From contig NZ_VAJL01000001.1 of NCBI RefSeq assembly GCF_006175945.1, positions 1,488,001 to 1,552,000 of the forward strand: a DNA stretch of 64,000 bases, in the 5' to 3' direction. This document shows, in pieces, positions 13,873 through 64,000 of this stretch. Below the pieces are notes generated by a model. That model ran no database searches. It was not told the origin of the DNA and was given only the letters and a program-made list of their open reading frames with translations. The translations under genes were made by a program, and so were the position numbers. How positions within the stretch are numbered: position 1 is the stretch's first letter; each line of letters begins with the position of its first letter. The stretch comes from Chryseobacterium mulctrae. Lineage in GTDB: Bacteria > Bacteroidota > Bacteroidia > Flavobacteriales > Weeksellaceae.

Positions 13873-13882
13873 ATAGAAAATT

Positions 13883-16732: not shown

Positions 16733-16736
16733 TATA

Positions 16737-17207: not shown

Positions 17208-17231
17208 AGTATTTTGTATTTTTTCTCAGAT

Positions 17232-18224: not shown

Positions 18225-18356
18225 TTCTTCGTTATCATTTATATTTATTAGTTTTTATCAGCAAATATTTTTTTTAAATTCATCACAGAATATAATTTTA
18301 TAATAGGTTGGAAATACTTTCAGTTTCTATTTATAAACAATCCTCAAAAAGTTTTT

Positions 18357-18965
18357 TTAATACTTTTCTAAATCAGAAAAACTTAAATCCTGTATTTTAG
18401 GTAAGGTTTTGATCGGTTTTAGTTTAGTGTTTTTTATATTCTTTTTGTTTGGGCTAAAATCTCTGTCATATTCACTTTTAGTTCCTTTTATTAAGTCTAT
18501 TTCAGTTTCGGATGTGGTTTCTTTTCCATCCCATAATACCCGTGATATTTTAATTAATTCAAAATTATTTTGCTTCAGCCTAAATTCATAACTGCTTTTA
18601 CGGTTATTAATATCTGTCAGCATTCGCAAGACTCCTTCTTCAATAAAAAAATCCGGAATGGGATTGCCATTGTGTTCTCCTTTTTTATTAATCGGATATT
18701 GAGGTTGAATAATTTTTGTAGAAGAAACCAGCATTTGAAGTTTCTTGTCAGGTTGTGAAAGGAATATTTGTAATCTCAAAGGTCTGGTCTCGTCTTCAAT
18801 ATTCATTTCCAACATCACTTTATCATTTTGTTTGTCATTATTCAAATCTCCCACTTCTTCTTGTACCAGAGACGTGTAATTATCTTTATTAATAGTTTTT
18901 TGTGAAAATACATCAGTCTTTGCTACAAATAATAATATGATGGTGTATACTGCTATTTTTTTCAT
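18357..18965 (-). CDS. Secreted protein with a DxNxD calcium-type motif
   Basis: A 202-residue protein with a signal peptide (MKKIAVYTIILLFVAKTDVFSQ, cleaved before Lys), so it is periplasmic. Just after the signal is VGDLNNDKQNDKVMLEM, an FG-GAP/EF-loop-like Asp-Asn-Asp calcium motif followed by a beta strand. The rest is beta-rich, with a basic Pro/Lys tail. It lies between the membrane protein and the LysM-like gene in the T6SS cassette. Its export makes it a candidate immunity protein against a lipase delivered to the periplasm, but this is inferred only from position. Confidence 0.6.
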   Translation of the reverse strand: MKKIAVYTIILLFVAKTDVFSQKTINKDNYTSLVQEEVGDLNNDKQNDKVMLEMNIEDETRPLRLQIFLSQPDKKLQMLVSSTKIIQPQYPINKKGEHNGNPIPDFFIEEGVLRMLTDINNRKSSYEFRLKQNNFELIKISRVLWDGKETTSETEIDLIKGTKSEYDRDFSPNKKNIKNTKLKPIKTLPKIQDLSFSDLEKY

Positions 18966-19001
18966 AATTCATTTTTTTTGTTGATAATCACCTGGACGGT
19001 A

Positions 19002-19346
19002 TTAATTATCCATCAAAGGATTATCTATTAGTGCGCTTGCTATAAGATAAATAGAAAAAAACAGCCACATTAAATATAGTAATCCAAGAAAAATAATAAT
19101 ACGGCTTACATATAAAATCCAATCCTTTTTTATCTTTTTTAAAAGAATAATATCTATAAGAACAAATAAAATACTGGTAGGTATACTTATTATCAAACCA
19201 AATTGCTTAATTATTTTCACAATAAGTTTTAAATTAATTGATTCAACAAGAGGACTATAAACAAATAAGAAATAAGCTGTCACTACCAGATTTGCTATTA
19301 AAAAAACCAACAGAATCTTACCAATACCTTGTGTTATACTTTTCAT
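19002..19346 (-). CDS. Small membrane protein next to the lipase-like effector
   Basis: A 114-residue protein with three hydrophobic segments: about residues 10-30 (ILLVFLIANLVVTAYFLFVY), 46-70 (IKQFGLIISIPTSILFVLID) and 78-106 (IIIFLGLLYLMWLFFSIYLI). It begins two bases after the stop of the lipase-like gene, so the two are coupled. Immunity proteins of T6SS phospholipases are often membrane or periplasmic proteins encoded next door, which makes this the first candidate. I do not recognise the family. Confidence 0.6.
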   Translation of the reverse strand: MKSITQGIGKILLVFLIANLVVTAYFLFVYSPLVESINLKLIVKIIKQFGLIISIPTSILFVLIDIILLKKIKKDWILYVSRIIIFLGLLYLMWLFFSIYLIASALIDNPLMDN

Positions 19347-19348
19347 AT

Positions 19349-21130: not shown

Positions 21131-21133
21131 ATC

Positions 21134-25599: not shown

Positions 25600-25642
25600 A
25601 TAATTGTTTGAATTGACGGATAGTGTCAATTCAAACAATTAT
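25600..25642. promoter_or_regulatory. Perfect 18-bp inverted repeat upstream of the 25661 gene
   Basis: Arms 25600-25617 (ATAATTGTTTGAATTGAC) and 25625-25642 are exact reverse complements around a 7-base loop. The hairpin ends 18 bases before the preferred ATG at 25661, so it is either an operator or a structured leader. Confidence 0.75.
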
Positions 25643-25660
25643 GTTCAATTTTACTCCACT

Positions 25661-26641
25661 ATGGACAGAAAAATTCTATTAAATCAATTAGAATTAGCGT
25701 ATTCTCCTTTAACGGCTTATGAATTCGCTGTTGTAAAAAATGATAAACTAATTGAAAGGGCTTTAAAAAGGTCAAGTTTATATGTTATTGCGCAAAGACC
25801 TGCAATAACATTCGAAAATTTATACTCCGATAATAAGGAATTTAAATTAAACTTCGAAATACATCAACAAGGAAATGTAAATATTTTAAAATGCGAACTT
25901 CCTTTTGACCAAGAAATATTTGGATTAATTAAAGATAATGAAGTGGAGATTGCAATTAATTATCTCAATGATTCTTTAAAAGAAGAAAATCCTTTCAGTA
26001 ATATTCATGGTTTTTCTTTATTAAGTAATAGGAATAATAAAAAAGAATTTATAGTATGGTTTTCGCCTGAAAAACTATTGCAAAACTGGTGGAAAGGTTT
26101 CGTTAATTGCGCTATTTTAGGAGATTGGAGTTCATTTTTATCATATCAAGTACATTATGTTGGAAAAGCTACTAAACAAAGTATTTTGAAAAGATTAACA
26201 GGTCATTCAACATTGCAAGATATACTTTCATTGCAAACTCCTGTAACTGAAAAACAATTACCTGCAAATGAAATAGTAATTTTACCATTTGAATTTCAAG
26301 ATAATTTACAAATAGAATCTTTTAGTTCTATGTCTAATATAGACGACATGGTTGACAGCTTTTTAGGAAAAAACTATCCTGAACAAGAAAAAGTTTTTTT
26401 AGATGCAGAAAAAGCTTTGATAAAAGCTATGGAACCATCATACAATAATGAAATGTTTAAAAAATATCCTATCAGTAAAGATGGACTGTACTCCGACAAA
26501 TATAATTCTATATCTTACACTTTCACAGATCCAATTATTCTAAAATATAATAATGGAGATATTAGAGGTGGATTAACTCATATTGGGGGAGATACGATTT
26601 TAATAAGTGACAATACAACCTTCGAATTAATTAAACACTAA
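25661..26641 (+). CDS. Protein of unknown function with a GIY-YIG-like segment
   Basis: The open frame can begin at a TTG at 25604, but that would translate the 18-bp inverted repeat. The ATG at 25661 (MDRKILLNQLELAYSPLTAY) gives a 326-residue protein. I do not recognise the family. Residues about 160-195 (YQVHYVGKATKQSILKRL, then TGHSTLQDIL) resemble the YIG-to-Arg part of GIY-YIG domains. A clear GIY strand before it is missing, so nuclease activity is doubtful. Composition is more A-rich than the neighbours, and the gene stands alone between the LacI regulator and uxaA, so it may be an insertion in the locus. Confidence 0.6.
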   Translation: MDRKILLNQLELAYSPLTAYEFAVVKNDKLIERALKRSSLYVIAQRPAITFENLYSDNKEFKLNFEIHQQGNVNILKCELPFDQEIFGLIKDNEVEIAINYLNDSLKEENPFSNIHGFSLLSNRNNKKEFIVWFSPEKLLQNWWKGFVNCAILGDWSSFLSYQVHYVGKATKQSILKRLTGHSTLQDILSLQTPVTEKQLPANEIVILPFEFQDNLQIESFSSMSNIDDMVDSFLGKNYPEQEKVFLDAEKALIKAMEPSYNNEMFKKYPISKDGLYSDKYNSISYTFTDPIILKYNNGDIRGGLTHIGGDTILISDNTTFELIKH

Positions 26642-48281: not shown

Positions 48282-49019
48282 TTACTCCCTGTTAACTCCT
48301 CTCTTTTTTCTCATAGATTCCCCCTGGAGTTCCAGGCGGTGAGACTGATGTATAAGTCTGTCCAGAATAGCATCGGCAATGGTCTTTTCACCAATAATGT
48401 CATACCAGCCCTGCACCGGGATCTGCGATGTTACAATGATGGATCCGTTGTTGTGACGGTCTTCTATGATCTCCAGAAGGGTTATCCTGTTGGCACTGTC
48501 CAAAGCCTGAAGACCAAAATCATCAAGGATGATCACATCCTGTCTTTGTATTTTTGCAAGTTCGCGCAGGTATGACCCGTCTGCTTTTGCCATTTTTAGT
48601 TTGGCAAACAGCTTGGAAGTATTAAAATAATTGACCTTGAAGCCTTCGATACAGGCCTGATAGCCCAATGCGGTTCCCAGGTAACTTTTACCCACGCCTG
48701 TACTTCCTGTGATCAGGATGTTTTCATTTTTTTCTACGAACTCACATCCTGCAAGACGCATTACCAGATTACGGTCGAGATTGCGGGTGTCATCGAAGTT
48801 GATACTTTCAATACTGGACCTGTAATGGAACTTTGCATTTTTGATGCTTCGCTCTATGCGCCTGTTGTGCCTCTCATCCCATTCGGCATCGATGAGCATC
48901 GATATAAACTGGTCGAGGGTATAATGGTCTGTCCTTCCGCTTTCAATAGCGGTCTTAAAGGCATTGTGCATGCCGTAAAGCTTCATTTGCTTCATTTTGC
49001 TCACTGTCGGTTCGTTCAT
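48282..49019 (-). CDS. istB: IS21-family helper ATPase IstB
   Basis: A 245-residue AAA+ ATPase that assists the IstA transposase in target capture. Motifs: Walker A GSTGVGKSYLGTALGYQAC near residue 105, Walker B DVIILDDFGLQALD near 163, sensor-1 NNGSIIVTSQIPVQGWYDII, and DAILDRLIHQSHRLELQGES near the C-terminus. The N-terminal helical part starts EPTVSKMKQMKLYGMHNAF. It follows istA by 12 bases in the same orientation. Length and motifs are complete, so it should be active. Confidence 0.95.
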   Translation of the reverse strand: MNEPTVSKMKQMKLYGMHNAFKTAIESGRTDHYTLDQFISMLIDAEWDERHNRRIERSIKNAKFHYRSSIESINFDDTRNLDRNLVMRLAGCEFVEKNENILITGSTGVGKSYLGTALGYQACIEGFKVNYFNTSKLFAKLKMAKADGSYLRELAKIQRQDVIILDDFGLQALDSANRITLLEIIEDRHNNGSIIVTSQIPVQGWYDIIGEKTIADAILDRLIHQSHRLELQGESMRKKRGVNRE

Positions 49020-49031
49020 AACTGTTGATAT

Positions 49032-50582
49032 TTAATGATAATATTGTTTTCCTCTGATGTTGCCGTGATCAGGCAGTTCCTGCTCCTTTTCTTCTTTTTC
49101 CGGATCGATCATCTGATCCAGATTGTTCTCCAATATCTTCTGTACGGTCTTAAAGCTGTAGATCTTAAAATCCAATGCCCGTTTACAAGCATTTATCAAT
49201 CGCTCTCTTCCTACTTTCTTTTCGAACTTCAGGATTCCCAGGCAGCTTTTGTAAGCTTGCTCGGGATGATTCCGACTGTCGATAATTTGGAGGATATATT
49301 CTCCCACTGCAGTATCAATACTGTTTGCCCAATCGATAAAGCGGGCAGCACTCCATCCGGCCACGAACTGGTGGGTGCTGGCTAAATGTTCTGTAATGGT
49401 CGTGTAGACATAAGGCTTGTAATTGCGTCTGTGCATCGCGATCCTGTTGTATTTATAGTAGATCTCCACAGTGGAAGATGTGTATAGGATCTTGATCTTT
49501 TTCTTGATATACTGGTACGGAACACTGTAGTAGTTCTTATCCCGGCTCAACTGTACGTGCCCGTTCTGCATCACTGTTGCAAAGGATTGGTACCTGATCT
49601 CAAAACGACGCTCAGGCAGTGGGCGCAGCTGCTGCTTCTCGTCCTCCAGGAACAGCTCGTAGCGGGAGTAAGGGCGTCCTGTGAGCTTGCGTTTGTTATG
49701 AGAGTCCAACAGATCCCAGATCTCACTATTTAGTTCATCCAGGCCGCAGGATCCCTGTTGAAGGTTGGCGTAGATCCTTCTGTACAGGATCTTTACCGCT
49801 CCCTCTACCAAGGATTTATCCCTCGGTTTGTAAGCCCTGGCAGGCAAGATGGTCGTTTCATAATGTTCGGCCAGATCGGCCAGGGTCTCATTGATGGTGG
49901 GTTCAAAACGGCTGCTTTTGATCACTGCGGATTTTAAATTATCAGGAACGATCGCTGCCGGTGTGCCTTCAAAAAAGCGGATGGCATTTTCTACAGAACG
50001 TACAAAATCTTCCTTCTGCTGGCTCATAGAGGCTTCAGCATACGTGTACTGGCTTGCTCCCAGAATAGCTACAAAAAACTGAACTTCTTTAAGCTCCCCG
50101 CTTTCCTTATCAATAATGGAGAGTGTTTTCCCTGCATAATCGACATACATCTTATCACCGGATTTGTGATTCATATGCATCACCGGGTTCACACGCTTGC
50201 CCCATATCTTGTAATGATGCCGGAACTGTGAACTCTGAAAACCATCAGGATGCAGTGCAAGATATTGCTCCCACATATGATGGATAGTGATTCCTACCTT
50301 TTTGAGCTCACGTTCCATCTTTGGGAAAAAATCGTACAGGGACTGTAGTTTGGGGCTAATGGACTCCGCGGTGGTATTGGAAAACAAAAGTTCCAGCTCG
50401 GCATCTGTCTTGGCATTGATCGCATCAAGGTTTAAGCCCAGAATCTCATACAATGAGATGTATTTTTTAACGGTATTTCTGGAAAGGGATAAATAGCTGC
50501 TTATAAATAACTTGCTCTTTCCAGTGCTGTAGAATTTTATGACTTTTCTAATTTTACTCATGTCTGTTATTTTATTTGCCAT
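49032..50582 (-). CDS. istA: IS21-family transposase IstA
   Basis: A 516-residue DDE transposase. An N-terminal helix-turn-helix (SKLFISSYLSLSRNTVKKYI) precedes the RNase H-like core. The core contains DKMYVDYAGKTLSIID near residue 145 (first Asp), AAIVPDNLKSAVIKS near 210 (second Asp), and KSLVEGAVKILYRRIY near 260 (Glu). A C-terminal DNA-binding part with NYYSVPYQYIKKKIKILY follows. All three catalytic acids are present. It starts 180 bases inside the right end of the element, after the terminal repeats. Confidence 0.95.
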   Translation of the reverse strand: MANKITDMSKIRKVIKFYSTGKSKLFISSYLSLSRNTVKKYISLYEILGLNLDAINAKTDAELELLFSNTTAESISPKLQSLYDFFPKMERELKKVGITIHHMWEQYLALHPDGFQSSQFRHHYKIWGKRVNPVMHMNHKSGDKMYVDYAGKTLSIIDKESGELKEVQFFVAILGASQYTYAEASMSQQKEDFVRSVENAIRFFEGTPAAIVPDNLKSAVIKSSRFEPTINETLADLAEHYETTILPARAYKPRDKSLVEGAVKILYRRIYANLQQGSCGLDELNSEIWDLLDSHNKRKLTGRPYSRYELFLEDEKQQLRPLPERRFEIRYQSFATVMQNGHVQLSRDKNYYSVPYQYIKKKIKILYTSSTVEIYYKYNRIAMHRRNYKPYVYTTITEHLASTHQFVAGWSAARFIDWANSIDTAVGEYILQIIDSRNHPEQAYKSCLGILKFEKKVGRERLINACKRALDFKIYSFKTVQKILENNLDQMIDPEKEEKEQELPDHGNIRGKQYYH

Positions 50583-52532: not shown

Positions 52533-54038
52533 ATGAAGAAGTCGTTTAAAATCATCAGTCTTGCTGCAGTAATGCTGTTTTCAGGACAGATTTATGCTCA
52601 AAATAAAGATATTTACACAGGAATAGAGTTTAAAATGCCACAGGTGAAAGAAACTTCTTTTCCAGCGAATACCGTTTCTATCAAAGATTTTGGAGGTGTT
52701 GCAGGAGGTAAAGTAAAAAATACAGAAGCTTTCAAAAAAGCAATCGATGCTTTGGTAAAAAAAGGAGGTGGTAAACTTGTCGTTCCAAGAGGAATGTGGT
52801 TAACCGGACCAATTATTTTGCAAAGCAACATTAATCTACATATTGAAGAAGGGGCTTTTGTGGTTTTCAGTAAAGATAAAAACGACTATCCTTTGGTAGA
52901 TGTAAGTTTTGAAGGGTTGGAAACGATTCGTTGTCAATCTCCTATTTCTGCAAAAAATGCTAAAAATATTGCGATTACCGGAAAAGGAGTAATCGATGGA
53001 AGTGGTGATACATGGAGAGCCATTAAAAAAAGTAAAATGGCAGAATCTCAATGGAAAGAAATTGTAAAATCAGGCGGAATTCTTTCTGCAGACGGAAAAA
53101 ACTGGTACCCATCAGAAAGTTATAAAAAAGGATTCGAAAGCAGCTCTAGCTTCAATGTCCCCGATAAAATTTCAAAATCTGAACTGGAATCTGTAAAAGA
53201 TTTTCTTCGTCCGGTAATGGTGAGCATCGTTGGTTGTGACCAAGTTTTATTGGATGGACCGACTTTCCAAAATTCTCCGGCTTGGAACTTACATCCATTA
53301 ATGACATCAAACCTTATTTTAAGAAATCTTACAGTAAGAAATCCGTGGTATTCTCAAAATGGTGACGGTGTAGATTTAGAATCTTGTAAAAATGTTTTGA
53401 TCTACGACAATACCTTTGATGTAGGAGATGATGCAATCTGCATTAAATCAGGAAAAAATGAAGACGGAAGAAAAAGAGGAATGCCTACTGAAAATGTAAT
53501 CATCAAAAATAATGTGGTTTACCATGGTCACGGAGGTTTCGTTATCGGAAGTGAAATGTCTGGTGGAGCTAGAAATATTCACGTTTCCGATTGTACATTT
53601 ATTGGAACTGATATTGGTCTTCGTTTCAAAACAACTCGTGGAAGAGGTGGTATTGTTGAAAATATTTATGTAAAAAACATTGATATGATCAATATTCCGA
53701 CTCAGACGATTGGTTTTAATATGTTCTACGAAGGAGCTTCTCCTGTTTTAGAAGACGGGCAAAAAGAAGAAGGCAACAAAGCTCCTGAAAAAGTATTTCC
53801 AGTAACTGAGGAAACTCCAATTTTCAGAAATATTTATTTTAAAGTTTTCAGGAAAAAGCTGTATCGGTTGAATACTAGGCTTTTATATAGATTATCAAAA
53901 AAGTCAGGTAACGATTTGGTAACGGTGCTTATTGCTTTGCTTTTCAACGTGTTTCCGTTAGCTCATAGCAAATATATGGAAATTGAAATCACAATAAAAG
54001 TTTTAAAATCAGATTTGTATTCTAAACTTAATAGATAA
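52533..54038 (+). CDS. Polygalacturonase (GH28) with a foreign C-terminus
   Basis: A 501-residue exported protein (signal peptide MKKSFKIISLAAVMLFSGQI then YAQ). It hydrolyses homogalacturonan. The beta-helix holds the GH28 motifs NPWYSQNGDGVDLESCKN (NxD), FDVGDDAICIKSG (DD), VVYHGHGGFVIGSEMSGGAR (GHG) and GLRFKTTRGRGGIVENIYVK (RxK). The normal family sequence ends at ETPIFRNIYFK (about residue 437); the following 64 residues (VFRKKLYRLNTRLLYRLSKK and onward) look nothing like GH28 and come from the element that begins here. The last coils of the helix are missing, so stability and activity are doubtful. Confidence 0.85.
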   Translation: MKKSFKIISLAAVMLFSGQIYAQNKDIYTGIEFKMPQVKETSFPANTVSIKDFGGVAGGKVKNTEAFKKAIDALVKKGGGKLVVPRGMWLTGPIILQSNINLHIEEGAFVVFSKDKNDYPLVDVSFEGLETIRCQSPISAKNAKNIAITGKGVIDGSGDTWRAIKKSKMAESQWKEIVKSGGILSADGKNWYPSESYKKGFESSSSFNVPDKISKSELESVKDFLRPVMVSIVGCDQVLLDGPTFQNSPAWNLHPLMTSNLILRNLTVRNPWYSQNGDGVDLESCKNVLIYDNTFDVGDDAICIKSGKNEDGRKRGMPTENVIIKNNVVYHGHGGFVIGSEMSGGARNIHVSDCTFIGTDIGLRFKTTRGRGGIVENIYVKNIDMINIPTQTIGFNMFYEGASPVLEDGQKEEGNKAPEKVFPVTEETPIFRNIYFKVFRKKLYRLNTRLLYRLSKKSGNDLVTVLIALLFNVFPLAHSKYMEIEITIKVLKSDLYSKLNR

Positions 54039-54054: not shown

Positions 54055-54103
54055 CTATAAACGATAAAACAATAGTGCTATCCATTATTTTTATCGTTTA
54101 TAG
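54055..54103 (-). terminator. Terminator of the restriction-ATPase operon
   Basis: Arms 54055-54069 (CTATAAACGATAAAA) and 54089-54103 are perfect 15-bp reverse complements, 16 bases past the stop of the last gene (54119). The arms are A/T-rich, so it may be a weak terminator or an RNA stabilising hairpin. Confidence 0.6.
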
Positions 54104-54118
54104 TTACATCAACTAACT

Positions 54119-56551
54119 CTATTTTTTCCAATCGTATTTAGTATGGTCACAGCCACATCTAATTTTTTTAGCGACTGTATCATAATTCTTCAACGAAACT
54201 CTTGGTCTTTTACATTCCAATTCTTGACAAATAAAAATATTTTCCAATTCCAATATGTCTGACCAAAATGCTTTTAAATCTCCTATTTTAGGATTAAATG
54301 GATTATCGTGAGAACAAATATTACCTAAAATAGAGGAACTTTCAATTCTATCAATAACTGGAAATTTAGATTTTAGATCAGTACTACATTTCTTAATCTC
54401 TGATTTAATTCCCATTATTAATTCATAAGGCATCCTATGTTCATTAGAATCATTATACTGGAAACTTAATTTGGCTTCAATGCTTACGGCTACTTCTTTT
54501 AAAGCATGTTCAAGATATCTTCTAATAGGATTCCCTAAGTTTTCAATATTACTTTCAGATAAGCATTTTTCAATTTTTTCCCTTAAATCATTAGGCTGTT
54601 CATCAAAAAAAGTTCCATTATTTTCAGTCCATTTAATCTCGTTGATTAACCAGCCTTTCTTTTTTGCCAATGGGGTAACGAAATTTGTAAACCAATCTAA
54701 TTCGTGAGTAAGAAGGATAATCTGATAACCTGAAAATTTTTCGAAGATTAATTCAGCAAATCGTTTTCTATGATTTGAGTCGAAACTCGAAATAACGTCA
54801 TCAAGTACAAGAAACTCATTTATATTATTAAATGCTTTTACAGAAGCTAAAAAAAAGGAAATGCCAAAACAATTTAGATGAGATTCACTAAAATATTTTT
54901 GAGGTGGAGAAACCCACTTCGCGTTATATTTGTACTCAATTGTAATTCCGTTCAATTCATCTTCTTCACCTATTGTAACAATTTTAATTTCCTGAAAAGG
55001 TTCTCCAGGATTCATATATTGATAATATTCATTAATAGTCTCCGAAAATGTATTTATAAAGTTTTCTAAACCCTCCTTTTGAACTTTTACAAACTCATTA
55101 TAGATTATTTCCAGTGTTTTACGCTGGCTTTCCAATTTTATTTTTTGCTTTTCAAATTGTTTAATTTTTAGAAAGGCATCTTTTGAGGCTGATATATTCG
55201 CAAATAATTCAGTTGAGTTATCTTTTTTAAGTGTTTCCTGAATAACTTTTATTCTGCCTGAAATCACAGTTTGAAAATCAAAATCGGATAGTAATAAATC
55301 AATTGTCTCTTTACTAGGTATTTTATTTCCAGATGTTACCTTTTCAACACTTGCTTTTTGATATTCCTCTAATTTCTTCTTTATTGAACTAATACCAGTT
55401 TTTATCTTAGCATTACTATCGTCAATCATTAAACTTTCCAAAAGAAGATTATCTATCCGTTTTATCCTCTCGGTAGAAATAGAATCTGCTAATTGCTTAG
55501 CCCTATCAAAAGAAGCCTTTTTCTTGGATGACTCTTCAATCGCTTTTAATCTTTTAGTTATATCACTTTGTAAATCCTCCCTGTTTTTCGGTTGTAAACA
55601 TAATGGGCAACTGTCATCTTTGTGATATTTCTTTAAAACAGTTTCGCCTGTTTTTAATAATTCATTCAAGAAGGTCTGCATAATACTTTGAACATCGTTC
55701 GCTATTTTTTCAAATTCATCATAATAGTTTGAGTAAGTATTATTTATTAATTGTATTTCTGATTTAAGTGTATTTAATATATTATTGTTTTTATCTAAAA
55801 ATGAAAGTTCCTTATTAAGCTTGTCATTTGTCGACTTTTTCAAATACTCCAAAACAGTATCAATATCAGCCAAGCTTTTCACTTCTATTCCTATTTTCAG
55901 GGGTTCTATTTTTTCATTTATTTTTTCAAATAAGTTTCTTTCCTGACTGATAGAAGCTCCTAATTTTGCAATCAAAACTCCTTTTTGAGTGTTTATTTGC
56001 GCTTCAAAATTTTGATTTTTAATTTCAGTATTTATGGCTCTGTAGCTCTTCCCTAAAACTTCTTTTTTCTTTGTAACTTCTGAAAAACCAATAATATCCG
56101 ATAGATACTTTAGCTTATCACTTTTAGTATCATCAATAAAATCAGTCAAATATTGATATCTTAAAAGTAGGTTTTCCTCTTTTGAGTTATTAATGTAGTT
56201 TTTAAAATCATCAGAGTTATTTGACAACCCAATTTCCAATTTATCTCTTTTTGCAAATAGCGTTTTAGCTCCATCAAGAGTTGATTCTTTAACATACGAA
56301 ATATTCACTTCTGAAATATCATCCTGATTTAAAGAAGCATTTCTAAGAGCATCCTTTAAATCAATTTCACTGTTGCTGGAAAGGTGTTCAACCCGATTTG
56401 TATAAAACCATTCGATTGCATCAGAAATACTGCTTTTTCCTGTGCCATTATCACCGTACAATACAATTGACTTACCTTCTAAAGGTAAAACCAACTTATC
56501 CTTAACTCCTCTTACTCCCGAGATGTTTATGTTTTTAATTTTTACTTTCAT
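54119..56551 (-). CDS. SMC/RloC-like ATPase with a zinc hook
   Basis: An 810-residue ABC/SMC-type ATPase. Walker A LYGDNGTGKSSISDAIEWFY is at 31-50. Long coiled-coil arms follow, meeting at a CPLC zinc-hook (Cys 315, Cys 318). The ABC signature region YFSESHLN is at 553-560, Walker B EFLVLDDVISSFD at 579-591, and the switch His in ILLTHE at 616. After residue 650 comes a C-terminal domain with RRYLEHALKEVAV (677-689) and LGNICSHDNPF (742-752), then Cys 775, 780, 799, 801 and His 803, which could bind a second zinc. This plan resembles RloC/PrrC-type restriction-linked guard proteins, but their anticodon-nuclease triad cannot be assigned here. It overlaps the 62-residue gene by 17 bases. Confidence 0.8.
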   Translation of the reverse strand: MKVKIKNINISGVRGVKDKLVLPLEGKSIVLYGDNGTGKSSISDAIEWFYTNRVEHLSSNSEIDLKDALRNASLNQDDISEVNISYVKESTLDGAKTLFAKRDKLEIGLSNNSDDFKNYINNSKEENLLLRYQYLTDFIDDTKSDKLKYLSDIIGFSEVTKKKEVLGKSYRAINTEIKNQNFEAQINTQKGVLIAKLGASISQERNLFEKINEKIEPLKIGIEVKSLADIDTVLEYLKKSTNDKLNKELSFLDKNNNILNTLKSEIQLINNTYSNYYDEFEKIANDVQSIMQTFLNELLKTGETVLKKYHKDDSCPLCLQPKNREDLQSDITKRLKAIEESSKKKASFDRAKQLADSISTERIKRIDNLLLESLMIDDSNAKIKTGISSIKKKLEEYQKASVEKVTSGNKIPSKETIDLLLSDFDFQTVISGRIKVIQETLKKDNSTELFANISASKDAFLKIKQFEKQKIKLESQRKTLEIIYNEFVKVQKEGLENFINTFSETINEYYQYMNPGEPFQEIKIVTIGEEDELNGITIEYKYNAKWVSPPQKYFSESHLNCFGISFFLASVKAFNNINEFLVLDDVISSFDSNHRKRFAELIFEKFSGYQIILLTHELDWFTNFVTPLAKKKGWLINEIKWTENNGTFFDEQPNDLREKIEKCLSESNIENLGNPIRRYLEHALKEVAVSIEAKLSFQYNDSNEHRMPYELIMGIKSEIKKCSTDLKSKFPVIDRIESSSILGNICSHDNPFNPKIGDLKAFWSDILELENIFICQELECKRPRVSLKNYDTVAKKIRCGCDHTKYDWKK

Positions 56552-56723
56552 CTTGTTCTCTCAACTTTTGGAGTTCGTTTTTAACATTGGTGTCAGTCAG
56601 TTTATCATCATTGTAGAGTTGAACTAACATTGATGCAATATTTTTATCAACATCTTTGATTTCTTCTATTCCTTTAAAAAAATCATCTAATATTTCCTTT
56701 CCTGATTTTACTTTTTCTCCCAT
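56535..56723 (-). CDS. 62-residue acidic helical protein
   Basis: A short protein (MGEKVKSGKEILDDFFKGIE and so on), rich in Asp, Glu and Lys, with heptad-like spacing and no Cys or aromatic core. It is probably a helical bundle or partner peptide. I do not recognise it. It starts nine bases after the stop of the GIY-YIG gene and overlaps the ATPase start by 17 bases, which supports translation. A role as regulator or partner of the ATPase is plausible but is inference. Confidence 0.6.
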   Translation of the reverse strand: MGEKVKSGKEILDDFFKGIEEIKDVDKNIASMLVQLYNDDKLTDTNVKNELQKLREQDESKN

Positions 56724-56732
56724 ATTCCTAAT

Positions 56733-57188
56733 TTAGTTAAAATATTCCCAATCAACTTTAAAACTTGTTGTAAGTGTGTTATTTAAAATTTCAAACCCTG
56801 TTTTGTTATTACATATCGGGTAAACTCCAAAATTTTTCACAAAATCCAAGATGAAATAACTCTCTAAATCCTCTATTCTAAATTGCCAGATATTCCTTAA
56901 CATTTCAAAATTAATATAGGTAAATAACAATGGCTCAACTTTTCGATAGTTCGTTAAGCCAACGTTTTTAGACTTACCGTCAAAATGTCCAGATAGTCTA
57001 CTACCTATACTATTTGTTTTTCGCTCGCTCATTCCAATATAGAGAAGTTTTGACTTCTTAAAAGGATACTGAATATCTAAAGACTGACTAAATATAAAAT
57101 ACAAGCCAGCAATGCCATTTAGTGGTCTTATATTGTTTGGTTCAAATGGCATAGGGTTGTCAAAATATATAGATATCTCATTCTCCAT
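56733..57188 (-). CDS. GIY-YIG nuclease-like protein
   Basis: A 151-residue protein with the elements of a GIY-YIG domain: GLYFIFSQ (GLY at 28-30), KLLYIGMSERK (YIG at 50-52), the conserved Arg 64 in GSRLSGHF, and Glu 109 in EDLESYFILDF, followed by YPICNN with Asn 127. The catalytic residues appear intact, so it may cut DNA as a single-domain nuclease. It starts four bases past the Mod stop. GIY-YIG proteins next to restriction systems can be auxiliary nucleases; the target is unknown. Confidence 0.7.
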   Translation of the reverse strand: MENEISIYFDNPMPFEPNNIRPLNGIAGLYFIFSQSLDIQYPFKKSKLLYIGMSERKTNSIGSRLSGHFDGKSKNVGLTNYRKVEPLLFTYINFEMLRNIWQFRIEDLESYFILDFVKNFGVYPICNNKTGFEILNNTLTTSFKVDWEYFN

Positions 57189-57192
57189 TCTA

Positions 57193-59133
57193 TTAAAACG
57201 CCTTAAATTTTTCTCCCATATAGTGCTTCAGATTCCATTTCTTGGTAGTGTCTAACGCACGTTCCAAGACAATAACCTTTTGGTCTGTATGAGTTTTGAA
57301 ATACTCTACGGTTTCCGCTGATAACGAGCCGTCTAGACAAATTAATGTTTCTTTTTCGCCATCTGATGCTAGAAAAACTTCATTCTTCTTGAATTGCTCT
57401 TGTAGAATAGTTGTGTAATTCAGCTTAAAGCCGTTTTTAATCAATATTTCGGTAATGAGTTCATCTCGGTTGAAAGCGGTTATCAATTGTGCTTCTTTGT
57501 CGGTAATGTACTTTTTCAATGCTTCTACATTTTCCTCGTCTGATTTTTCAGGGTCAGGAGCATATTCTGCTCTTGGAAAATTAGATTTTGCTAACTTAAA
57601 GACTTTGAAACCAAGTCCATTTAGCTGATTATTTTTATCCTCCTTTTTATCAAATAAATCAGGCTGTTCACTTTCCTTTTCTTTAATGATTTTCTCGACA
57701 ACTCGTTTATTACGTTCTATTGTAATATCACTGATTTTTTTAAACCCTGAGTTGTAAGCTTCGCTTTTTGAGTCTGTAGCTTCAGGAAGTTGTACTAAGA
57801 TATATCTCCGATTTCCATTGTCTGCTTTATTCAGTTCTGTTACTGAATGTCCTGTAGTTCCAGAACCAGCAAAGAAGTCAAGAATAATATCATTTTTATT
57901 AGATGAAATCAAAATACATTTTTTTATTATTTCTACTGGCTTTGGGTAATCAAATATCTTTCCCCCTAAGAGATTTTTTAAATCAATAGAAGCTTTTTTA
58001 TTCCCATCTATATTTTTCCACAAGTCAGATGGCTGTTTCAGCCTTCCTTCGAGATAAAACTTTAGGTATGGCTTCCAAACTGTCAATTCATTTTCTTTAG
58101 ACTCTTTCCATTCAATCATCCCGTCATTCTCAAATTCTTTATATTTACTTAAGGAACATCTCCACCTGCTTTCATATCCCCCTGGTCCGATTGGAAAAAC
58201 TTCCGTGTTATTTGGAGCCATTAAGGGAAAATACATACTGGGTCTATCTTCTCTTTTATCTTCCCCGCCCGTTTTCCGTAGAGGTCTAGTTAGATATTGT
58301 CCTCTTTGGTCAGATTGGTTATAAATCTGCTTATCATTATCATCAAAATCTACTCCATTAAAATCACCTTGGTCTGTTTTGGAATAAATAATTATGTAAT
58401 CCAATTCAGAAACTAGCCCTCTAGTACCTTGACCTGTAGGAGTACCTGTTAATCGACTTACTTGCCCTAAAAAGTTCTCTTCTCCAAATACCTCATCACA
58501 CAACTTTCTTAAATGATGTACCTCATTGTCATCAATAGAAATAAATATCATCCCATCTTCATGCAACAATTGTCTTGCAATAAGCAAACGACTGTACATC
58601 ATATTCAACCAATTACTGTGAAAACGTCCGTCCGTTTCTATATTAGAATCAATTTTATAGCCATGCTCGGTTATTTCTGCATCTTCCCAATATTCTTTTC
58701 TGTCTTGATTAAACTTATCAGAATATACAAAATCGTTCCCAGTGTTATATGGTGGGTCTATGTATATACATTTTATTTGTTCCCGATAGCTTTGGCTTAA
58801 TAGTTTAAGTACGGCTAAGTTTTCGCCTTCAATAATCAGGTTTTCGCTTTCGGTTGGGTTTACACTTCTGGCTTCGTCATAAATCAATGTAGCATCGGTA
58901 GGTGTGAATGCTTCACGTTTAGCGTTGCTCTTGCCAAACCAACGAAATTCATAGCGTTCTGTCTCGTTTATACTATTATAGTCAATTACTTTTTTTAGTT
59001 CATTGATATTGAGTGCGCCATCATTGGTAAACAGGTCAGGCATCAACCTTTTAAGTTGTTCTAACCGTTCTTTATTCCAATCGTGAGATTGTACATTTTC
59101 CAGTGGATTAATTATATATTCTTGATTGCTCAT
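57193..59133 (-). CDS. mod: Type III DNA adenine methyltransferase (Mod)
   Basis: A 646-residue modification subunit that methylates adenine at a short asymmetric site and directs the Res subunit. The catalytic motif DPPYNTG is at 126-132 and the AdoMet-binding FAGSGTTGHS at 421-430. This order, DPPY before FxGxG, is that of beta-class type III Mod proteins, with the target recognition domain between them (residues 220-400). The C-terminal 150 residues carry the Res-contact region. The start codon overlaps the Res stop (TAATG), so Mod is translated after Res. Confidence 0.94.
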   Translation of the reverse strand: MSNQEYIINPLENVQSHDWNKERLEQLKRLMPDLFTNDGALNINELKKVIDYNSINETERYEFRWFGKSNAKREAFTPTDATLIYDEARSVNPTESENLIIEGENLAVLKLLSQSYREQIKCIYIDPPYNTGNDFVYSDKFNQDRKEYWEDAEITEHGYKIDSNIETDGRFHSNWLNMMYSRLLIARQLLHEDGMIFISIDDNEVHHLRKLCDEVFGEENFLGQVSRLTGTPTGQGTRGLVSELDYIIIYSKTDQGDFNGVDFDDNDKQIYNQSDQRGQYLTRPLRKTGGEDKREDRPSMYFPLMAPNNTEVFPIGPGGYESRWRCSLSKYKEFENDGMIEWKESKENELTVWKPYLKFYLEGRLKQPSDLWKNIDGNKKASIDLKNLLGGKIFDYPKPVEIIKKCILISSNKNDIILDFFAGSGTTGHSVTELNKADNGNRRYILVQLPEATDSKSEAYNSGFKKISDITIERNKRVVEKIIKEKESEQPDLFDKKEDKNNQLNGLGFKVFKLAKSNFPRAEYAPDPEKSDEENVEALKKYITDKEAQLITAFNRDELITEILIKNGFKLNYTTILQEQFKKNEVFLASDGEKETLICLDGSLSAETVEYFKTHTDQKVIVLERALDTTKKWNLKHYMGEKFKAF

Positions 59134-61850
59134 TATTTTTCTGTTATTGCGTTAATATCATTTACAGATTCGTCTTTAAAAAACATATAGTCTTTTACTG
59201 GTGCTTTGTATTTTACGTCTACTCCCAATGCATTGAAATGTTTAACCGCACAAAGAATTTTATACACTTCGCTTTCTTTCAATGCTTTTTTATCATTGAT
59301 ATCGTTAGTTCCTTTAGTTTCAATGACAAAATAAAACTCACTTTCCTTTCCATCTTTCAATTGTTTTCGTTTCATCACAATACCAAAATCTGGTTCATAT
59401 TCTCCAATTGGTGTCGGAATTTTATAATAGCTAGGGAGTTTTAAGAAACAAATCAGTTCGTCATCACGGTCTGCACCTAAAGCAAACTTTCTTTCTACAT
59501 CACTATCAATTAACATTTTGTCGAAAACTCCTTTTTGAGGTGTGTCCACGTAACCAGAATCATTAATATTCTTGACAAAATCATCAAATTCAAAAGGAAA
59601 TGCTTCATTAGTAAGATGATAATCCAAACCACGTAGCATCTCTTCCAATTCGATATTCTTTATTAAGTTTGCTGATTGATGAATGTATTGTGGTGGATTC
59701 TTAGCAAAGTCTTCGTGATTGGTTAATTGTTTGACAATTTCAAAAAGAGAATTATAAGATAGACCAGTGTTTTCACTTAGCTCTTCCACTAAATCCAAAG
59801 GCGTATAGAAAGCTTTTAGTTTATAGGTTTCTTTTCCTGCAAATTCATCCTGAATACCAGTTTCGCTAATATTCCCGATAGTTCTGCTTGATACTTCTGC
59901 CTGATAATCGGCGATTGAAATAGCGTTTAATGCTTCTATACTCCGTGCAATCAAAGCCTGTTCGTTAAAAGCAACCGAAAAGTTTGTTTTCCTAGCCAAA
60001 GCTTTCCAAAAACGCTTGAAAGCCTGATTAATAGTTTCATTTTGATTACGTTTAAAACGAACCTCATTTTGTGGTTTGCCTTTATGCGTATGACTCATTC
60101 CTGCTCCAGCTTGTGCTGTACCATAAACTTCTTTAATTTCTTCTTGATATTGGGTTACAAAGGTTTCGTATGTTTCGTTTGGAATGACAGTTAATTGATT
60201 AACACGTTTTTCTTCTGCTACATCCAAGGCATCATAAACACGCTGTCCGTTTTGATTAACAGCAATACGCAAACCACGACCAATTTCCTGACGCTTTTTG
60301 ATTTCGGAATATGAATTATTTAGCGTTGCGATGTTGAATATATTAGGATTATCCCAACCCACACCCAAGGCGGAATGGGAAAAAATAAACTCAATTTTAT
60401 TCGCTACGGAATCTCCATAAGACAATAGCTCTTCTTTGTCTTTTAAAATAGCGTCAAAAACATCTGAGTTTTTACGCATTGAAGTTTCATTGTCGGTAAA
60501 TTCTCCTTTCCCTGTTTTAGCAAAATAAAATCCCTGAATTCCTTCAATATGTTCATTTGATGGAATTTTTCCATCGTGAAATTCGGGATATAATGTTTTA
60601 TACTTTTCTATAAACAAATTTTTAATAATAGGTTCATCACTTACGTAGTTAGCTACTTTATCTATAAAAATTAATGAAAGGCATTTAATATCCTGCATCT
60701 GTAATTTTTGCTTTTTGGTAAAATGACGGATAATCAGCCATTCCAATTGCAAAGCCCAAATACTCTCTATATTTCCTGAAGTTTGCTTCTCAAAAATTTG
60801 TGTTCCATTGGTAAAAGTTACTGACCATTTTTGTGTTCTTAAACTCTTATTGATTCGTTCAATGCTATATTTGAGATAACTTGGATTGTTGGTTATAGCC
60901 CCTAGATTATCACCATCTTTCAACCATTTGGTTTCCTTGAATTCTATCTTACCATTAGCAGATTGATGCCACGCTTTAATTTTTGCCCTGATTGGATTTT
61001 TACCGTTTTGAATTTCAGTCAATTCTAATTTCAATGTAGCTTCATCGTTCTTTTCAGTGACAGTCAATACCTCAATCTTTTTTACCAAACCTTGTCTGTA
61101 ACTATCGTAAGGAGTAAGACGGTAAATAAGGTTTTTAACAATTTTATGCGTAGCAGAATATCTTAATTTGAAAAGCGGATTGAGTTTAGCAATTTGTTTA
61201 ACAGAATTAACCGTATCCATTCCTTCCTGTGGTTCGTCCATCACAATTATCGGGTTTGTTCTTCCGATCGCTTCGATAAACGGGACATTAGCAAATAAAT
61301 CTTCACGTTTTGATTGATTTAAGATTTTATCTTCGGAGTTAAACGAAGCCAATGTCATAATCATTATTTGAGGATGTTGCTCCTCAATAAAATTTGTTAC
61401 GTTACTCAGTTTTTTACTGTTGTACTCAAATGATTTTGGAATAAAGCCGTAAATATCTTCCAATTGCTTCTCAAATGTTTTTAATGTCTTTAAAACACCC
61501 TGACGGATGGCGACTGATGGTACTAGAATGATAAATTTTGTAAAAGCATAATGTTTATATAGCTCGCAAATGGTTTTAACATAAACTAGTGTTTTACCTG
61601 TCCCTGTTTCCATTTCAATTGTTAGCTCTCTGTCCTTCGAAATCTTTGCTGTATTTTCTTCGATTCCATTTTCTATTAAAACTTCCTTCTTATTCTCTAA
61701 AACCTGTTCATCAAGTAGGGTACAATTATTAGAGCGAATACCATCAAAACAAGCATTATCAAATGTGTTTTTGATATTGCCATCAAATACTTTAACAATC
61801 GATTGAATGGCAACTTCCTGATACTTGAGTTCTTCTAATTTTATTTGCAT
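59133..61850 (-). CDS. res: Type III restriction helicase-nuclease (Res)
   Basis: A 905-residue restriction subunit. SF2 helicase motifs are Walker A METGTGKT at 80-87, IIVMDEPQEGMD (motif II, DEPQ) at 202-212, LRYSATHKIV (motif III), and SALGVGWDNPNIF with RQEIGRGLR (motifs V and VI). The C-terminal endonuclease shows YEPDFGIVMKRK and FYFVIETKGT, a PD-(D/E)XK site. With Mod it translocates on DNA and cuts near unmethylated sites. The start overlaps the stop of the regulator gene (TAATG). All motifs look intact, so the enzyme should be active. Confidence 0.94.
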   Translation of the reverse strand: MQIKLEELKYQEVAIQSIVKVFDGNIKNTFDNACFDGIRSNNCTLLDEQVLENKKEVLIENGIEENTAKISKDRELTIEMETGTGKTLVYVKTICELYKHYAFTKFIILVPSVAIRQGVLKTLKTFEKQLEDIYGFIPKSFEYNSKKLSNVTNFIEEQHPQIMIMTLASFNSEDKILNQSKREDLFANVPFIEAIGRTNPIIVMDEPQEGMDTVNSVKQIAKLNPLFKLRYSATHKIVKNLIYRLTPYDSYRQGLVKKIEVLTVTEKNDEATLKLELTEIQNGKNPIRAKIKAWHQSANGKIEFKETKWLKDGDNLGAITNNPSYLKYSIERINKSLRTQKWSVTFTNGTQIFEKQTSGNIESIWALQLEWLIIRHFTKKQKLQMQDIKCLSLIFIDKVANYVSDEPIIKNLFIEKYKTLYPEFHDGKIPSNEHIEGIQGFYFAKTGKGEFTDNETSMRKNSDVFDAILKDKEELLSYGDSVANKIEFIFSHSALGVGWDNPNIFNIATLNNSYSEIKKRQEIGRGLRIAVNQNGQRVYDALDVAEEKRVNQLTVIPNETYETFVTQYQEEIKEVYGTAQAGAGMSHTHKGKPQNEVRFKRNQNETINQAFKRFWKALARKTNFSVAFNEQALIARSIEALNAISIADYQAEVSSRTIGNISETGIQDEFAGKETYKLKAFYTPLDLVEELSENTGLSYNSLFEIVKQLTNHEDFAKNPPQYIHQSANLIKNIELEEMLRGLDYHLTNEAFPFEFDDFVKNINDSGYVDTPQKGVFDKMLIDSDVERKFALGADRDDELICFLKLPSYYKIPTPIGEYEPDFGIVMKRKQLKDGKESEFYFVIETKGTNDINDKKALKESEVYKILCAVKHFNALGVDVKYKAPVKDYMFFKDESVNDINAITEK

Positions 61851-62167
61851 TAATCGTTGTTATTGGTTTTATTGTTGTATTTAATTTTTTGTTCCGCTAC
61901 TTTTAAAGCTTTTGTTCCCAAATCCTCATTCTTAATTTCATTTAGAATTTTGTCACTTAAATACTGAATTAAGAGGTCGTCTCTATCTAAATCGAGAATT
62001 TCGGCAAGTTTTATGATTTGTTCTTTTGTCGCTTTTCGTTCGTTTCGTTCAATTTTGCTAAGTATGGCGGTATCCACGTCCAATTCTGCACATACGTGTC
62101 GTAAAAGTAATCCTTTACGCTCCCTTGCTTCTCGGAGTATTTCACCTGTCGTTGTATTTTTTTTCAT
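61850..62167 (-). CDS. XRE-type helix-turn-helix regulator
   Basis: A 105-residue protein with an XRE/C-protein-like helix-turn-helix in residues 8-62: GEILREARERKGLLLRHVCA, then ELDVDTAILSKIERNERKAT. The last 40 residues are charged. It is first in the operon and its stop overlaps the Res start. Two dyads with TTGaC/TTGtC half-sites, one over the predicted -7 box and one over its start region, suggest that it represses its own operon. Comparable C proteins time the expression of restriction genes after entry into a new host. Confidence 0.88.
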   Translation of the reverse strand: MKKNTTTGEILREARERKGLLLRHVCAELDVDTAILSKIERNERKATKEQIIKLAEILDLDRDDLLIQYLSDKILNEIKNEDLGTKALKVAEQKIKYNNKTNNND

Positions 62168-62372: not shown

Positions 62373-63641
62373 CTAATGTCTTCTTTTCCGAGGATATTGC
62401 TTTTTTTTCATTTGGTTAGCAAACTGTTCTTCTTCGTAATCCTCGCCCTGTGCATCGGGTAACAGGCTAAACAATCCCAAATCGGTATTAGGCGAATGTT
62501 CCGGTGAGAGAAACTCAAAAAGGTCTTTTTGCGGTAGGTTCTCTATTCCATTTCCTTTAGAAATGGTGTTATCTTGTATCTTTAATTCGGGTTTATTTCC
62601 GTTATTCCACCAATCATTAAATACGTTTGCCGACAAATTTCTGTCTAATTGTGAGCCGTTCCAAACGCTACGGCTTTCGTAGTCTATAAAGGTCATACCG
62701 TAAATTCGTCCTTCACTGTTTCTGCGGGTAATCGTATTAATTCCTTGTTCTGTAAGTTGTTTTCTAAACTCCATTTCGTTGCTAGTAGTGTGTATGGCAA
62801 GCTCCACCGTATTTTTCAGAACTGCCCTTACAGGCGTGGTTTTCATTTTCTCTTTGGATTTCTCGAAGTGTTTTTGCAGTTGTGCAACGCCTGCATCTTT
62901 TCCGAAAAGTGATGCTTTAAAAGGATTGCTTGCCTTATTGCCGTTCTCATCCAAAGCTAAATAGACCAATCCGTTTACAGGTTGTCCGTTCCGTTCGCCT
63001 TTGACTTCTTCTGCTGTGATGTTGAACAGAGAAAGCAAAGCATTGTAATTACCCATAGTCGAAAAGCTGTAATTCTTTGGCAAATGGCGAACTACCGAAG
63101 CAATCTGACTTTTGATGTCGCCATTTTTATGATTTATAGGCTTGAAAATTTTGTTGACTTGTTTCTGCTCCTGCTCGATGGCTTTGTTTAGGTTATATTT
63201 AGTTTCCAAATCCCGACAGATAGCCATTGAGCGTGGGTGGTCGTAATCATCGGGGATTTTCTTGCCGTCAATTCCCACGCAGGTAGAAACGATATGGATA
63301 TGCGTGCGGTCTATGTCTGTATGTTTGAACACGATATACGGCTGATTGCCGTAGCCCATACGTTCCATATATTCCTGAGCCATATCCGTAAACTGCTCAT
63401 CGCTGATTTTATCCGAAGGATCTGGGTTCAGCGATATATGCCGTACCGTCTTTTCCGTTTTGATATTAGCAGACAGATATGGTTCAAAGCATTTATTAAA
63501 ATAGGCAACGGAATACTTACCGTCCACCGTGTCGGGTATCTTGTTCAGCAATAAAACCGCTCCGTTTTCCTTATCCACTTTTTGTTGATTGTACAAAATC
63601 GCTCCGTACATATTACTTCCCTTTCCGATTTTTGCAATCAT
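62373..63641 (-). CDS. mobB: MobB-like relaxase
   Basis: A 422-residue relaxase of the Bacteroidota MobB type. The metal-binding histidine triad is in VFKHTDIDRTHIHIVSTCVG at 104-123, and N-terminal MIAKIGKGSNMYGAILYNQQ is typical of the group. It nicks the transfer origin and carries the strand into the recipient. The C-terminus is charged (NQMKKKQYPRKRRH). It lies four bases after the MobA-like gene. A coupling protein gene (mobC/traG), common downstream in conjugative transposons, is replaced here by the restriction operon, about 200 bases on. Confidence 0.9.
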   Translation of the reverse strand: MIAKIGKGSNMYGAILYNQQKVDKENGAVLLLNKIPDTVDGKYSVAYFNKCFEPYLSANIKTEKTVRHISLNPDPSDKISDEQFTDMAQEYMERMGYGNQPYIVFKHTDIDRTHIHIVSTCVGIDGKKIPDDYDHPRSMAICRDLETKYNLNKAIEQEQKQVNKIFKPINHKNGDIKSQIASVVRHLPKNYSFSTMGNYNALLSLFNITAEEVKGERNGQPVNGLVYLALDENGNKASNPFKASLFGKDAGVAQLQKHFEKSKEKMKTTPVRAVLKNTVELAIHTTSNEMEFRKQLTEQGINTITRRNSEGRIYGMTFIDYESRSVWNGSQLDRNLSANVFNDWWNNGNKPELKIQDNTISKGNGIENLPQKDLFEFLSPEHSPNTDLGLFSLLPDAQGEDYEEEQFANQMKKKQYPRKRRH

Positions 63642-63645
63642 AATT

Positions 63646-64000
63646 TCACTCTTTATTCAGATATTTCTTTTCAAATTCCTGTGTCAAACGGATAACTTCT
63701 TTAGTAACTTGTACCAATTCGATGGTTTCCTTTTCCAATCTAAAAAGGTAAGTTCCTGCTTTTTTCTCGGAAAAATTACGGTACAATATCTTCACAATCT
63801 GATTGTAATTTGTTCCGATTGATCGGAACTGACTAAAAAATCGCGTCAACTTTTCGTGATATTCTATTGCATCCATATCCATTTTCACGGTCTTTACCGT
63901 CTTTTGAAAGATACAGGCTGTAATAAAATGAGCAAGTGCTTTCATTCTTGACTGGTCAAAGAGGGCAAGAAATTTGGCATTATCCTCCGCATTCAAATTG
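63646..64000 (-). CDS. mobA: MobA-like relaxosome protein, 5' end cut by the window
   Basis: The frame is open to the right edge. A TTG at 63994-63996 could be used but is unlikely; the readable part continues as NLNAEDNAKFLALFDQSRMK, so the true start is beyond 64000. The 116 or more residues contain HFITACIFQKTVKTVKMDMD and NQIVKILYRNF, the pattern of MobA/MobC-type accessory proteins that help the relaxase at oriT. It precedes mobB by four bases. An oriT would be expected upstream, outside the window. Confidence 0.75.
   Translation of the reverse strand, partial: NLNAEDNAKFLALFDQSRMKALAHFITACIFQKTVKTVKMDMDAIEYHEKLTRFFSQFRSIGTNYNQIVKILYRNFSEKKAGTYLFRLEKETIELVQVTKEVIRLTQEFEKKYLNKE

Follow-up and report, generated by a model that had tools for sequence, protein, structure and literature searches.

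Three described defence systems come closest to the locus analysed here. Lamassu/ABC-3C (LmuA-LmuC-LmuB) comprises an effector, a small middle component and an SMC-like ATPase (PMC10586767). RloC is a zinc-hook ABC ATPase of 658-897 aa with an R-x3-E-x36-52-H motif, and in 8 of 73 cases it is linked to type I or type III restriction-modification (R-M) systems (PMC2610378). PrrC, whose ABC ATPase gene lies within the EcoprrI R-M operon, has no zinc-hook insert and is associated with a single type I enzyme (PMC2610378, PMC3710099). Here we describe a locus of Chryseobacterium mulctrae, in a stretch of 64,000 nucleotides (contig NZ_VAJL01000001.1, positions 1,488,001 to 1,552,000; hereafter the window, whose numbering we use), where genes for a GIY-YIG nuclease-like protein, a 62-aa protein and a zinc-hook ATPase close a type III R-M operon. 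This trio resembles Lamassu in its effector, small component and SMC-like ATPase, RloC in its zinc hook and C-terminal R-x3-E ... S-H residues, and PrrC in the placement of an ATPase gene within an R-M operon. It differs from RloC in having constant GIY-YIG and small partners, and from PrrC in its hook, its GIY-YIG gene and its changing R-M partners. We find that the trio is conserved as one unit and has moved as a block between R-M operons of different types.

A three-gene cassette exchanged as one block

All six open reading frames (ORFs) of the operon (54119..62167) lie on the minus strand, in the order XRE, Res, Mod, GIY-YIG, small protein, ATPase. XRE and Res, and likewise Res and Mod, overlap by 1 base; gaps of 4 and 9 bases separate Mod from the GIY-YIG gene and the GIY-YIG gene from the small gene, and the small and ATPase genes overlap by 17 bases. 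A first-pass annotation, made from the letters of the DNA, had described a six-gene same-strand operon, and our ORF check agrees with it on all coordinates and junctions. The first gene (61850..62167) encodes an XRE-family HTH regulator (Pfam HTH_3, 4.6e-9). Res (59133..61850) matches PADLOC REase_III (1.4e-168) and Pfam RE_endonuc (2e-30) and ResIII (2.4e-16), and Mod (57193..59133), with a DPPY motif in its translation, matches PADLOC MTase_III (1.1e-163) and N6_N4_Mtase (2.5e-35). With helicase and endonuclease domains in Res and an N6/N4 methyltransferase domain in Mod, the two are ordinary type III subunits. The same genome holds a second Mod relative of 37% identity (G000:C2:30363-31799). 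Directly past the ATPase stop codon, an AT-rich inverted repeat (54056-54110) is a possible terminator that is absent from the list of a terminator scan, and a promoter pattern scan gave matches at chance level.

The first cassette gene (56733..57188, minus strand) encodes 151 aa with zero Pfam matches at 1e-3. With the limit relaxed to E 5, sub-threshold matches to PF20815 (GIY_YIG_2) are found in 27 of 27 aligned relatives (best 2.4e-4) and weak matches to PF01541 in 24 of 27. Residues G28-L-Y30, Y50-I-G52, R64, E109 and N127 are invariant in all 27, and we take these GIY, YIG, Arg, Glu and Asn positions to be the active-site positions of the superfamily. By these motifs the protein belongs to the GIY-YIG superfamily; a PDB sequence search with it returned nothing at E 1. 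Elsewhere in the window, a 345-aa ORF (25604-26641) with a YVGK...RLTGH stretch resembles, by eye, another GIY-YIG domain.

The second gene (56535..56723, minus strand) encodes the conserved 62-aa protein, a putative adaptor, with K6, G8, F15 and D26 unchanged across an alignment of 27 relatives and no family match in Pfam or PADLOC scans (PADLOC limit E 1e-3). At one locus (L053) a related ORF continues in frame into the ATPase start, and later frames there are broken. The third gene (54119..56551, minus strand) encodes the 810-aa ATPase (SMC_N, 1.1e-11), whose profile matches SMC and Rad50 structures. Its CPLC hook at 315-318 is invariant in 28 of 28 aligned ATPases, as are Walker A and an SES signature, the latter followed by His in 27 of the 28, and the Walker B/SSFD region carries invariant Asp and Ser residues. 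The C-terminal domain, with invariant R677, E681, R706, E710, S747 and H748 followed by a Cys-rich tail, may be a docking site or carry a second, HEPN-like RNase activity. Median pairwise identity is 0.68 for the GIY-YIG protein, the highest of the three, and falls to 0.43 (small protein) and 0.39 (ATPase).

To survey the trio, we scanned a collection of genome contigs (genome_contigs; one genome per species, 84,980 species) with a pattern of the GIY-YIG protein that recovers close relatives only. This yielded 52 loci, and in 51 of them the GIY-YIG, small-protein and ATPase genes follow one another in the same order. In the lone exception (L052), the GIY match covers 123 residues and 4.1 kb of downstream DNA holds no match to the small protein or the ATPase. 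With starts picked by a fixed rule, 48 of 50 loci show an overlap of 8-26 bases between the small gene and the ATPase gene. Pairwise distances of the three proteins are correlated (Mantel r 0.83-0.91, 46 sets), and 0 of 999 permutations reached values as high. The ratio of non-synonymous to synonymous substitution rates (dN/dS) is mostly 0.04-0.14 in the computed pairs; in two close pairs the small gene reaches 0.24 and 0.31, and for the window pair dS is saturated in two of the genes. The trio is thus conserved in order, co-varying and under purifying selection; the conservation across phyla, the low dN/dS and the recurrent small/ATPase overlap argue against a chance assembly. That the last three genes belong together had been proposed in the first-pass annotation, and the gene order kept across phyla bears this out.

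The module is rare. Counting the window's own genome in each case, the GIY-YIG protein occurs in 4 of 296 genomes of the family, the A2 profile in 2 of 296 genomes of the order (the second a fragment with stops) and the ATPase profile (E 1e-30) in 2 of 395 genomes of the phylum (the second an AIPR-type sister). Because of this rarity, co-occurrence was counted on the 52 scan loci together with the window and four further loci (L062, L063, L064, L065); with L052 dropped, 56 loci were counted. Bacteroidota account for 33 of the 56, and the remainder include Planctomycetota, Elusimicrobiota, Chloroflexota, Pseudomonadota, Verrucomicrobiota, Bacillota and others, with taxa taken from record titles and taxonomy and many loci lying in metagenome-assembled genomes, where binning may err. 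On an Aliiroseovarius (Rhodobacterales) plasmid (L062), the GIY-YIG gene is divergent yet adjacent to the small-ATPase pair, and TniB/TniQ-type transposition genes adjoin; a plasmid search returned one GIY match. A phage origin of the trio was rejected, since phage records held no relative of the GIY-YIG protein and none of 19 pattern matches in viral contigs was a relative.

Comparison of related loci with differing upstream genes delimits what is exchanged. In five such pairs (L002/L010, L002/L007, L007/L010, L003/L024 and L004/L005), DNA identity is 83-88%, and the homology block starts at -9 to +15 bp relative to the aligned GIY start, while its other end lies at most about 50 bp from the ATPase stop. 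By contrast, in pairs of the same R-M type (L004/L014, L012/L013, L008/L009 and L008/L024) homology extends upstream of the trio. Because homology is confined from the GIY start to the ATPase end, the trio is the unit of exchange: it has been transferred whole between operons whose R-M systems differ in type. Cassettes with ATPases at about 91% identity sit behind type III genes, behind type IIG genes and without an R-M system.

Association with restriction systems

R-M genes lie upstream in the same-strand run at 21 of the 56 loci, or 18 of 51 when near copies (L009, L013, L027, L028 and L042) are omitted. Eight loci have type III genes like those of the window (the window itself, L002, L006, L008, L009, L023, L024 and L065), and three have other type III-like genes (L003, L041 and L042). 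Four have a full or partial type I system (L004, L014, L015 and L063), and six have type IIG or IIG-like genes (L005, L010, L011, L012, L013 and L031). At the linked loci the genes share one strand, mostly with gaps of 2 to about 130 bases, and the trio stands at the 3' end of the operon; the link is looser at L003 (173 bp) and at L005, L015, L023, L031 and L065, where other genes intervene. No R-M gene was detected in the operon of the remaining 35 loci, some of which have short upstream flanks, and so the coupling may be mere co-location of defence genes.

These labels were assigned by us from PADLOC and Pfam scans of chosen ORFs and from tblastn searches with R-M seeds from these loci, and because of this restriction to chosen ORFs and local seeds an R-M gene may have been missed. 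Several assignments are soft: L003 matches MTase_II best and then MTase_III; L031 is type IIG, or type I with a specificity gene; at L005 the type IIG gene lies about 6 kb upstream in the same-strand run; L015 has HsdM and RhuM only; and L041 and L042 have Res only, at the beginning of their contigs. We did not count L038 (a methyltransferase-specificity fusion about 4.5 kb upstream on the same strand), L029 (a type IIG relative about 7 kb upstream), L021 (HsdR and HsdS downstream on the other strand), L026 (a Type ISP-like gene downstream on the other strand) or L032 (a weak match downstream).

A two-sided control covered 29 loci with at least 5 kb on each side, with the two nearest long genes taken per side (n=58). 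Among the families listed, which are the 25 commonest of 76 and 93 on the two sides, the upstream genes included ResIII 6, N6_Mtase 4, Eco57I 4, HSDR_N 3 and N6_N4_Mtase 3 times of 58, and the downstream genes N6_N4_Mtase 2, Type_ISP_C 1 and HSDR_N 1 times of 58. We would expect linkage at 21 of 56 loci to exceed that of a random gene, a judgement rather than a comparison with a genome-wide background. In the reverse direction, the trio follows Mod in 1 of 30 Mod relatives returned with DNA, 25 of which have at least 1 kb of DNA after Mod, and the single case is the window itself. Longer flanks of two close Mod relatives (L115 and L116) contain no trio, and for a third (L117) the contig stops about 0.3 kb past Mod.

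The first-pass annotation had proposed that the ATPase, the small protein and the nuclease are functional partners of the type III system. As a partnership with type III restriction as such, this is not supported: type III or type III-like genes account for only 11 of the 56 loci and type I or IIG genes for 10, and in the majority no R-M gene was detected in the operon. A trio found mostly without restriction genes is what the annotation had named as a refutation, and by this count a strict partnership is refuted. Seen from the Mod side, one trio among 30 relatives gives the same answer. What stands is the togetherness of the trio and its frequent position behind R-M genes, with no specificity for type III systems.

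The ATPase tree adds to this picture (52 rows, built by a quick method, with L015 labelled as unlinked and some loci with incomplete ATPases absent). R-M type labels require at least 12 changes on the tree against a shuffled mean of 17.4, and the type III label alone takes 5 changes against a shuffled mean of 5.8, with 110 of 500 shuffles as low, so that type III shows no extra clustering.

Known systems, neighbours and the carrier element

The best PADLOC match of the ATPase is LmuB (9.7e-28), and several LmuB models match. Using one of these models, we found 1.2e-27 for the trio ATPase, whereas the 12 best LmuB loci range from 2.8e-54 to 4.1e-146; an SbcC-like protein with an LSGGE signature beside an SbcD-like gene (L134; labels by eye) scores better than the trio, at 2.7e-30, and 9 of 14 control genomes are matched as well. 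Lamassu membership was therefore rejected by sequence, since the LmuB score of the ATPase lies at the SMC/SbcC background. The Lamassu-like order of effector, small protein and SMC-like ATPase is nevertheless that of the 51 trio loci. Of the 12 best LmuB loci, 11 have a gene of 151-184 aa before LmuB and the twelfth has one of 231 aa, compared with 62 aa in the trio, and the 62-aa protein has no PADLOC match at E 1e-3. The trio ATPase also has an additional C-terminal domain of about 170 aa, and the effector list in the accessible part of the Lamassu account does not include GIY-YIG (PMC10586767).

With its hook and 810 aa, the ATPase falls within the RloC size range, and the invariant R706-x3-E710-x37-H748 fits the published RloC spacing (PMC2610378). 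R677-x3-E681 resembles the RloC helix in sequence, but E681-x66-H748 lies outside that spacing, and both sister ATPases described below lack Arg at the R677-aligned position, in a weakly aligned region. Six RloC-like proteins (hook, R-x3-E, 38-40 residues, S-H) match strongly only across 123 columns of the ATPase lobe. The C-terminal domain matches them over 19 columns (probability 6.4%, E 0.0057) and five PrrC-like proteins over 16 columns (0.4%), in a comparison of low power, because RloC-like against PrrC-like proteins themselves gave only 30%. RloC membership is unproven: the motif is present, and homology of the C-terminal domain is not significant. Linkage to type I or III systems, at 13 of 51 non-redundant loci, compares with 8 of 73 for published RloC genes (Fisher p 0.05, on differently drawn sets).

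The closest full-length relatives found are the sister ATPases of two operons (L066 5748-18390 and L144 5914-18501; probability 99.8, E 3.1e-29, 698 columns). These operons encode a helicase, a 72-73 aa protein, a zinc-hook ATPase, an AIPR-type protein, Mod, a DUF1016-type protein and Res; the helicase, AIPR, DUF1016, Mod and Res labels were assigned by eye, and Mod and Res of L066 also by tblastn. They share with the trio an SESH signature, a CxxC hook, a Cys-rich tail, a short gene overlapping the ATPase start and type III-like Mod and Res. They differ in their AIPR-type protein and helicase, and a GIY-YIG relative was not found in L066 and none was read in L144. The short proteins of the two operon kinds match with a profile probability of 0.3, so relatedness is not demonstrable. 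We know of no name for this sister operon type. A literature search, with most subscription papers and preprints outside its reach, gave no description of the GIY-YIG/small/ATPase set, and a GIY-YIG enzyme paired with an SMC/Rad50-like defence ATPase was not found in the searchable literature.

Other defence genes adjoin the cassette. At L063, the type I operon before it includes a PrrC-like gene (13383-14519; AAA_13 4.2e-15; R-x3-E-x31-H, Ser preceding His), and at L022 the cassette is followed by a KTSC-like gene and then an RloC-like gene (13313-15610; hook CLFC, R-x3-E-x37-H). The comparison with RloC and PrrC drawn in the first-pass annotation was in this respect apt. Further neighbours are a HEPN protein (L065), a Shedu-type protein (L031), RhuM (L015) and an FRG protein (L026). 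These neighbours are the company of stacked defence layers. A KTSC-like gene of 71-80 aa (by eye) recurs at L010, L016, L021, L022, L041, L042, L046, L049 and L050, upstream of the GIY-YIG gene or downstream of the ATPase gene; the L010 copy has no Pfam match at 0.01.

In the window, the operon is adjoined by genes of its carrier: a MobA/VirD2-type relaxase (62373..63641, minus strand; Pfam Relaxase 1.8e-27) and a MobC-like protein (63646..63996, minus strand, running past the window end, with a full ORF of 63646-64080; MobC_2 4.4e-48). The left copy of an 11-bp direct repeat, TTTATTTTAAA (53833..53843), marks the carrier edge inside a split GH28 gene, and the right copy, beyond the window, lies at extended position 70419-70429; the repeats bracket an insert of about 16.6 kb. 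This insert interrupts the GH28 gene (52533-54038), whose remaining part lies about 16.6 kb further on (L083), and an integrase-like gene (label by eye) lies past the window end, at the end of the insert. A mobile element had been noted at first pass, and the adjoining MobC and relaxase genes together with the integrase-like gene and repeats at the insert ends confirm it. The locus is best explained if this element, mobilizable and integrated, carries a type III R-M operon that captured the trio at its 3' end. The carrier also encodes a 224-aa look-alike of an AbiEii-type nucleotidyltransferase (by eye; L083 3247-3921, extended position 65247-65921). Elsewhere in the window are VgrG- and PAAR-type secretion-system look-alikes with large neighbours (13883-23092) and an IS21-type istA/istB-like two-gene unit (48282-50582), both by eye.

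A possible second layer behind restriction

We favour, with moderate confidence, a reading of the trio as a self-contained, mobile, Lamassu/RloC-like DNA-sensing defence cassette that R-M operons have acquired as a second layer. The zinc-hook ATPase, aided by the small protein, would form an SMC/Rad50-like complex that senses abnormal DNA, such as free ends or blocked replication products, and ATP-driven head closure would license DNA cutting by the GIY-YIG protein. Where a restriction enzyme is linked, the abnormal DNA or ends would come from its action, and the cassette would also be able to act alone. Restriction would form the first layer and the cassette the second, independent of R-M type. 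Some points weigh against such a cassette. The 35 operons with no detected R-M gene are one; on the ATPase tree, R-M-linked and unlinked loci are separated by 7 changes against a shuffled mean of 15.0, so that the linked loci cluster in one region of the tree; conservation within the trio is highest for the GIY-YIG protein, whereas effectors of Lamassu systems vary (PMC10586767); and DNA ends as the trigger are something we infer.

Alternatively, the trio could amplify restriction, with the ATPase and the GIY-YIG protein processing the ends of restricted DNA in the manner of Mre11-Rad50/SbcCD and the cell not killed. The linked R-M systems of types III, I and IIG should all make DNA ends, the linkage ignores R-M type and the ATPase profile matches SMC and Rad50 structures, in keeping with such a role. 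Operons with no detected R-M gene fit it poorly, and we know of no GIY-YIG enzyme that acts as a processive exonuclease; overall, we consider end processing of this kind unlikely.

The trio could also guard an R-M enzyme as PrrC guards EcoprrI, silenced by contact with Res or Mod and released when a phage inhibits restriction. Its place in the operon behind R-M genes and the PrrC-like gene in the cassette operon of L063 are in keeping with this, as is the PrrC precedent itself (PMC2610378, PMC3710099). However, the ATPases at about 91% identity behind type III genes, behind type IIG genes and without an R-M system disfavour a contact specific to one R-M enzyme, which is unlikely to survive such swaps. 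Since one and the same cassette can stand with various R-M partners, or with none as in the 35 operons with no detected R-M gene, we assign a contact-based guard a low probability.

It seems similarly improbable that the ATPase is an RloC-type tRNase, acting through a C-terminal HEPN domain with the GIY-YIG and small proteins as helpers or regulators. The hook, the length and an invariant Ser-His preceded by two likewise invariant R-x3-E candidates are suggestive, one candidate fitting the published RloC spacing (PMC2610378) and the other having the look of the RloC helix. Against these stand the short C-terminal matches to RloC-like and PrrC-like proteins, low in power as the comparison is, the spacing of E681 to H748, and the sister ATPases with no Arg at the weakly aligned R677 site. 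Finally, that the trio is an unrelated defence unit, a passenger beside R-M genes merely through defence-island location, would agree with the Mod relatives that mostly lack it, the R-M genes that occasionally lie downstream and the other adjoining defence genes, but is very unlikely given a same-strand position at the operon 3' end, mostly with gaps of 2 to about 130 bases, that was reached repeatedly with different R-M types, and R-M matches that are commoner upstream than downstream among the families listed.

Beyond the second-layer cassette itself, we raise a tentative possibility. The 'SESH' zinc-hook ATPase with its adaptor of 60-75 aa may be an unrecognised, widespread accessory of restriction operons into which exchangeable nucleases are plugged (GIY-YIG here, AIPR-type in the sister operons), and which would convert DNA ends, whichever restriction enzyme produced them, into a second, stronger response, with the GIY-YIG form moving between R-M types as a sealed cassette. 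The cassette adds a GIY-YIG enzyme to the SMC/Rad50-like defence ATPases. R-M systems are usually seen as complete machines; that a sealed trio attaches to systems of types I, IIG and III alike suggests that restriction can be given a second layer common to them, and one portable cassette makes it testable what follows when restriction has cut, or has failed.

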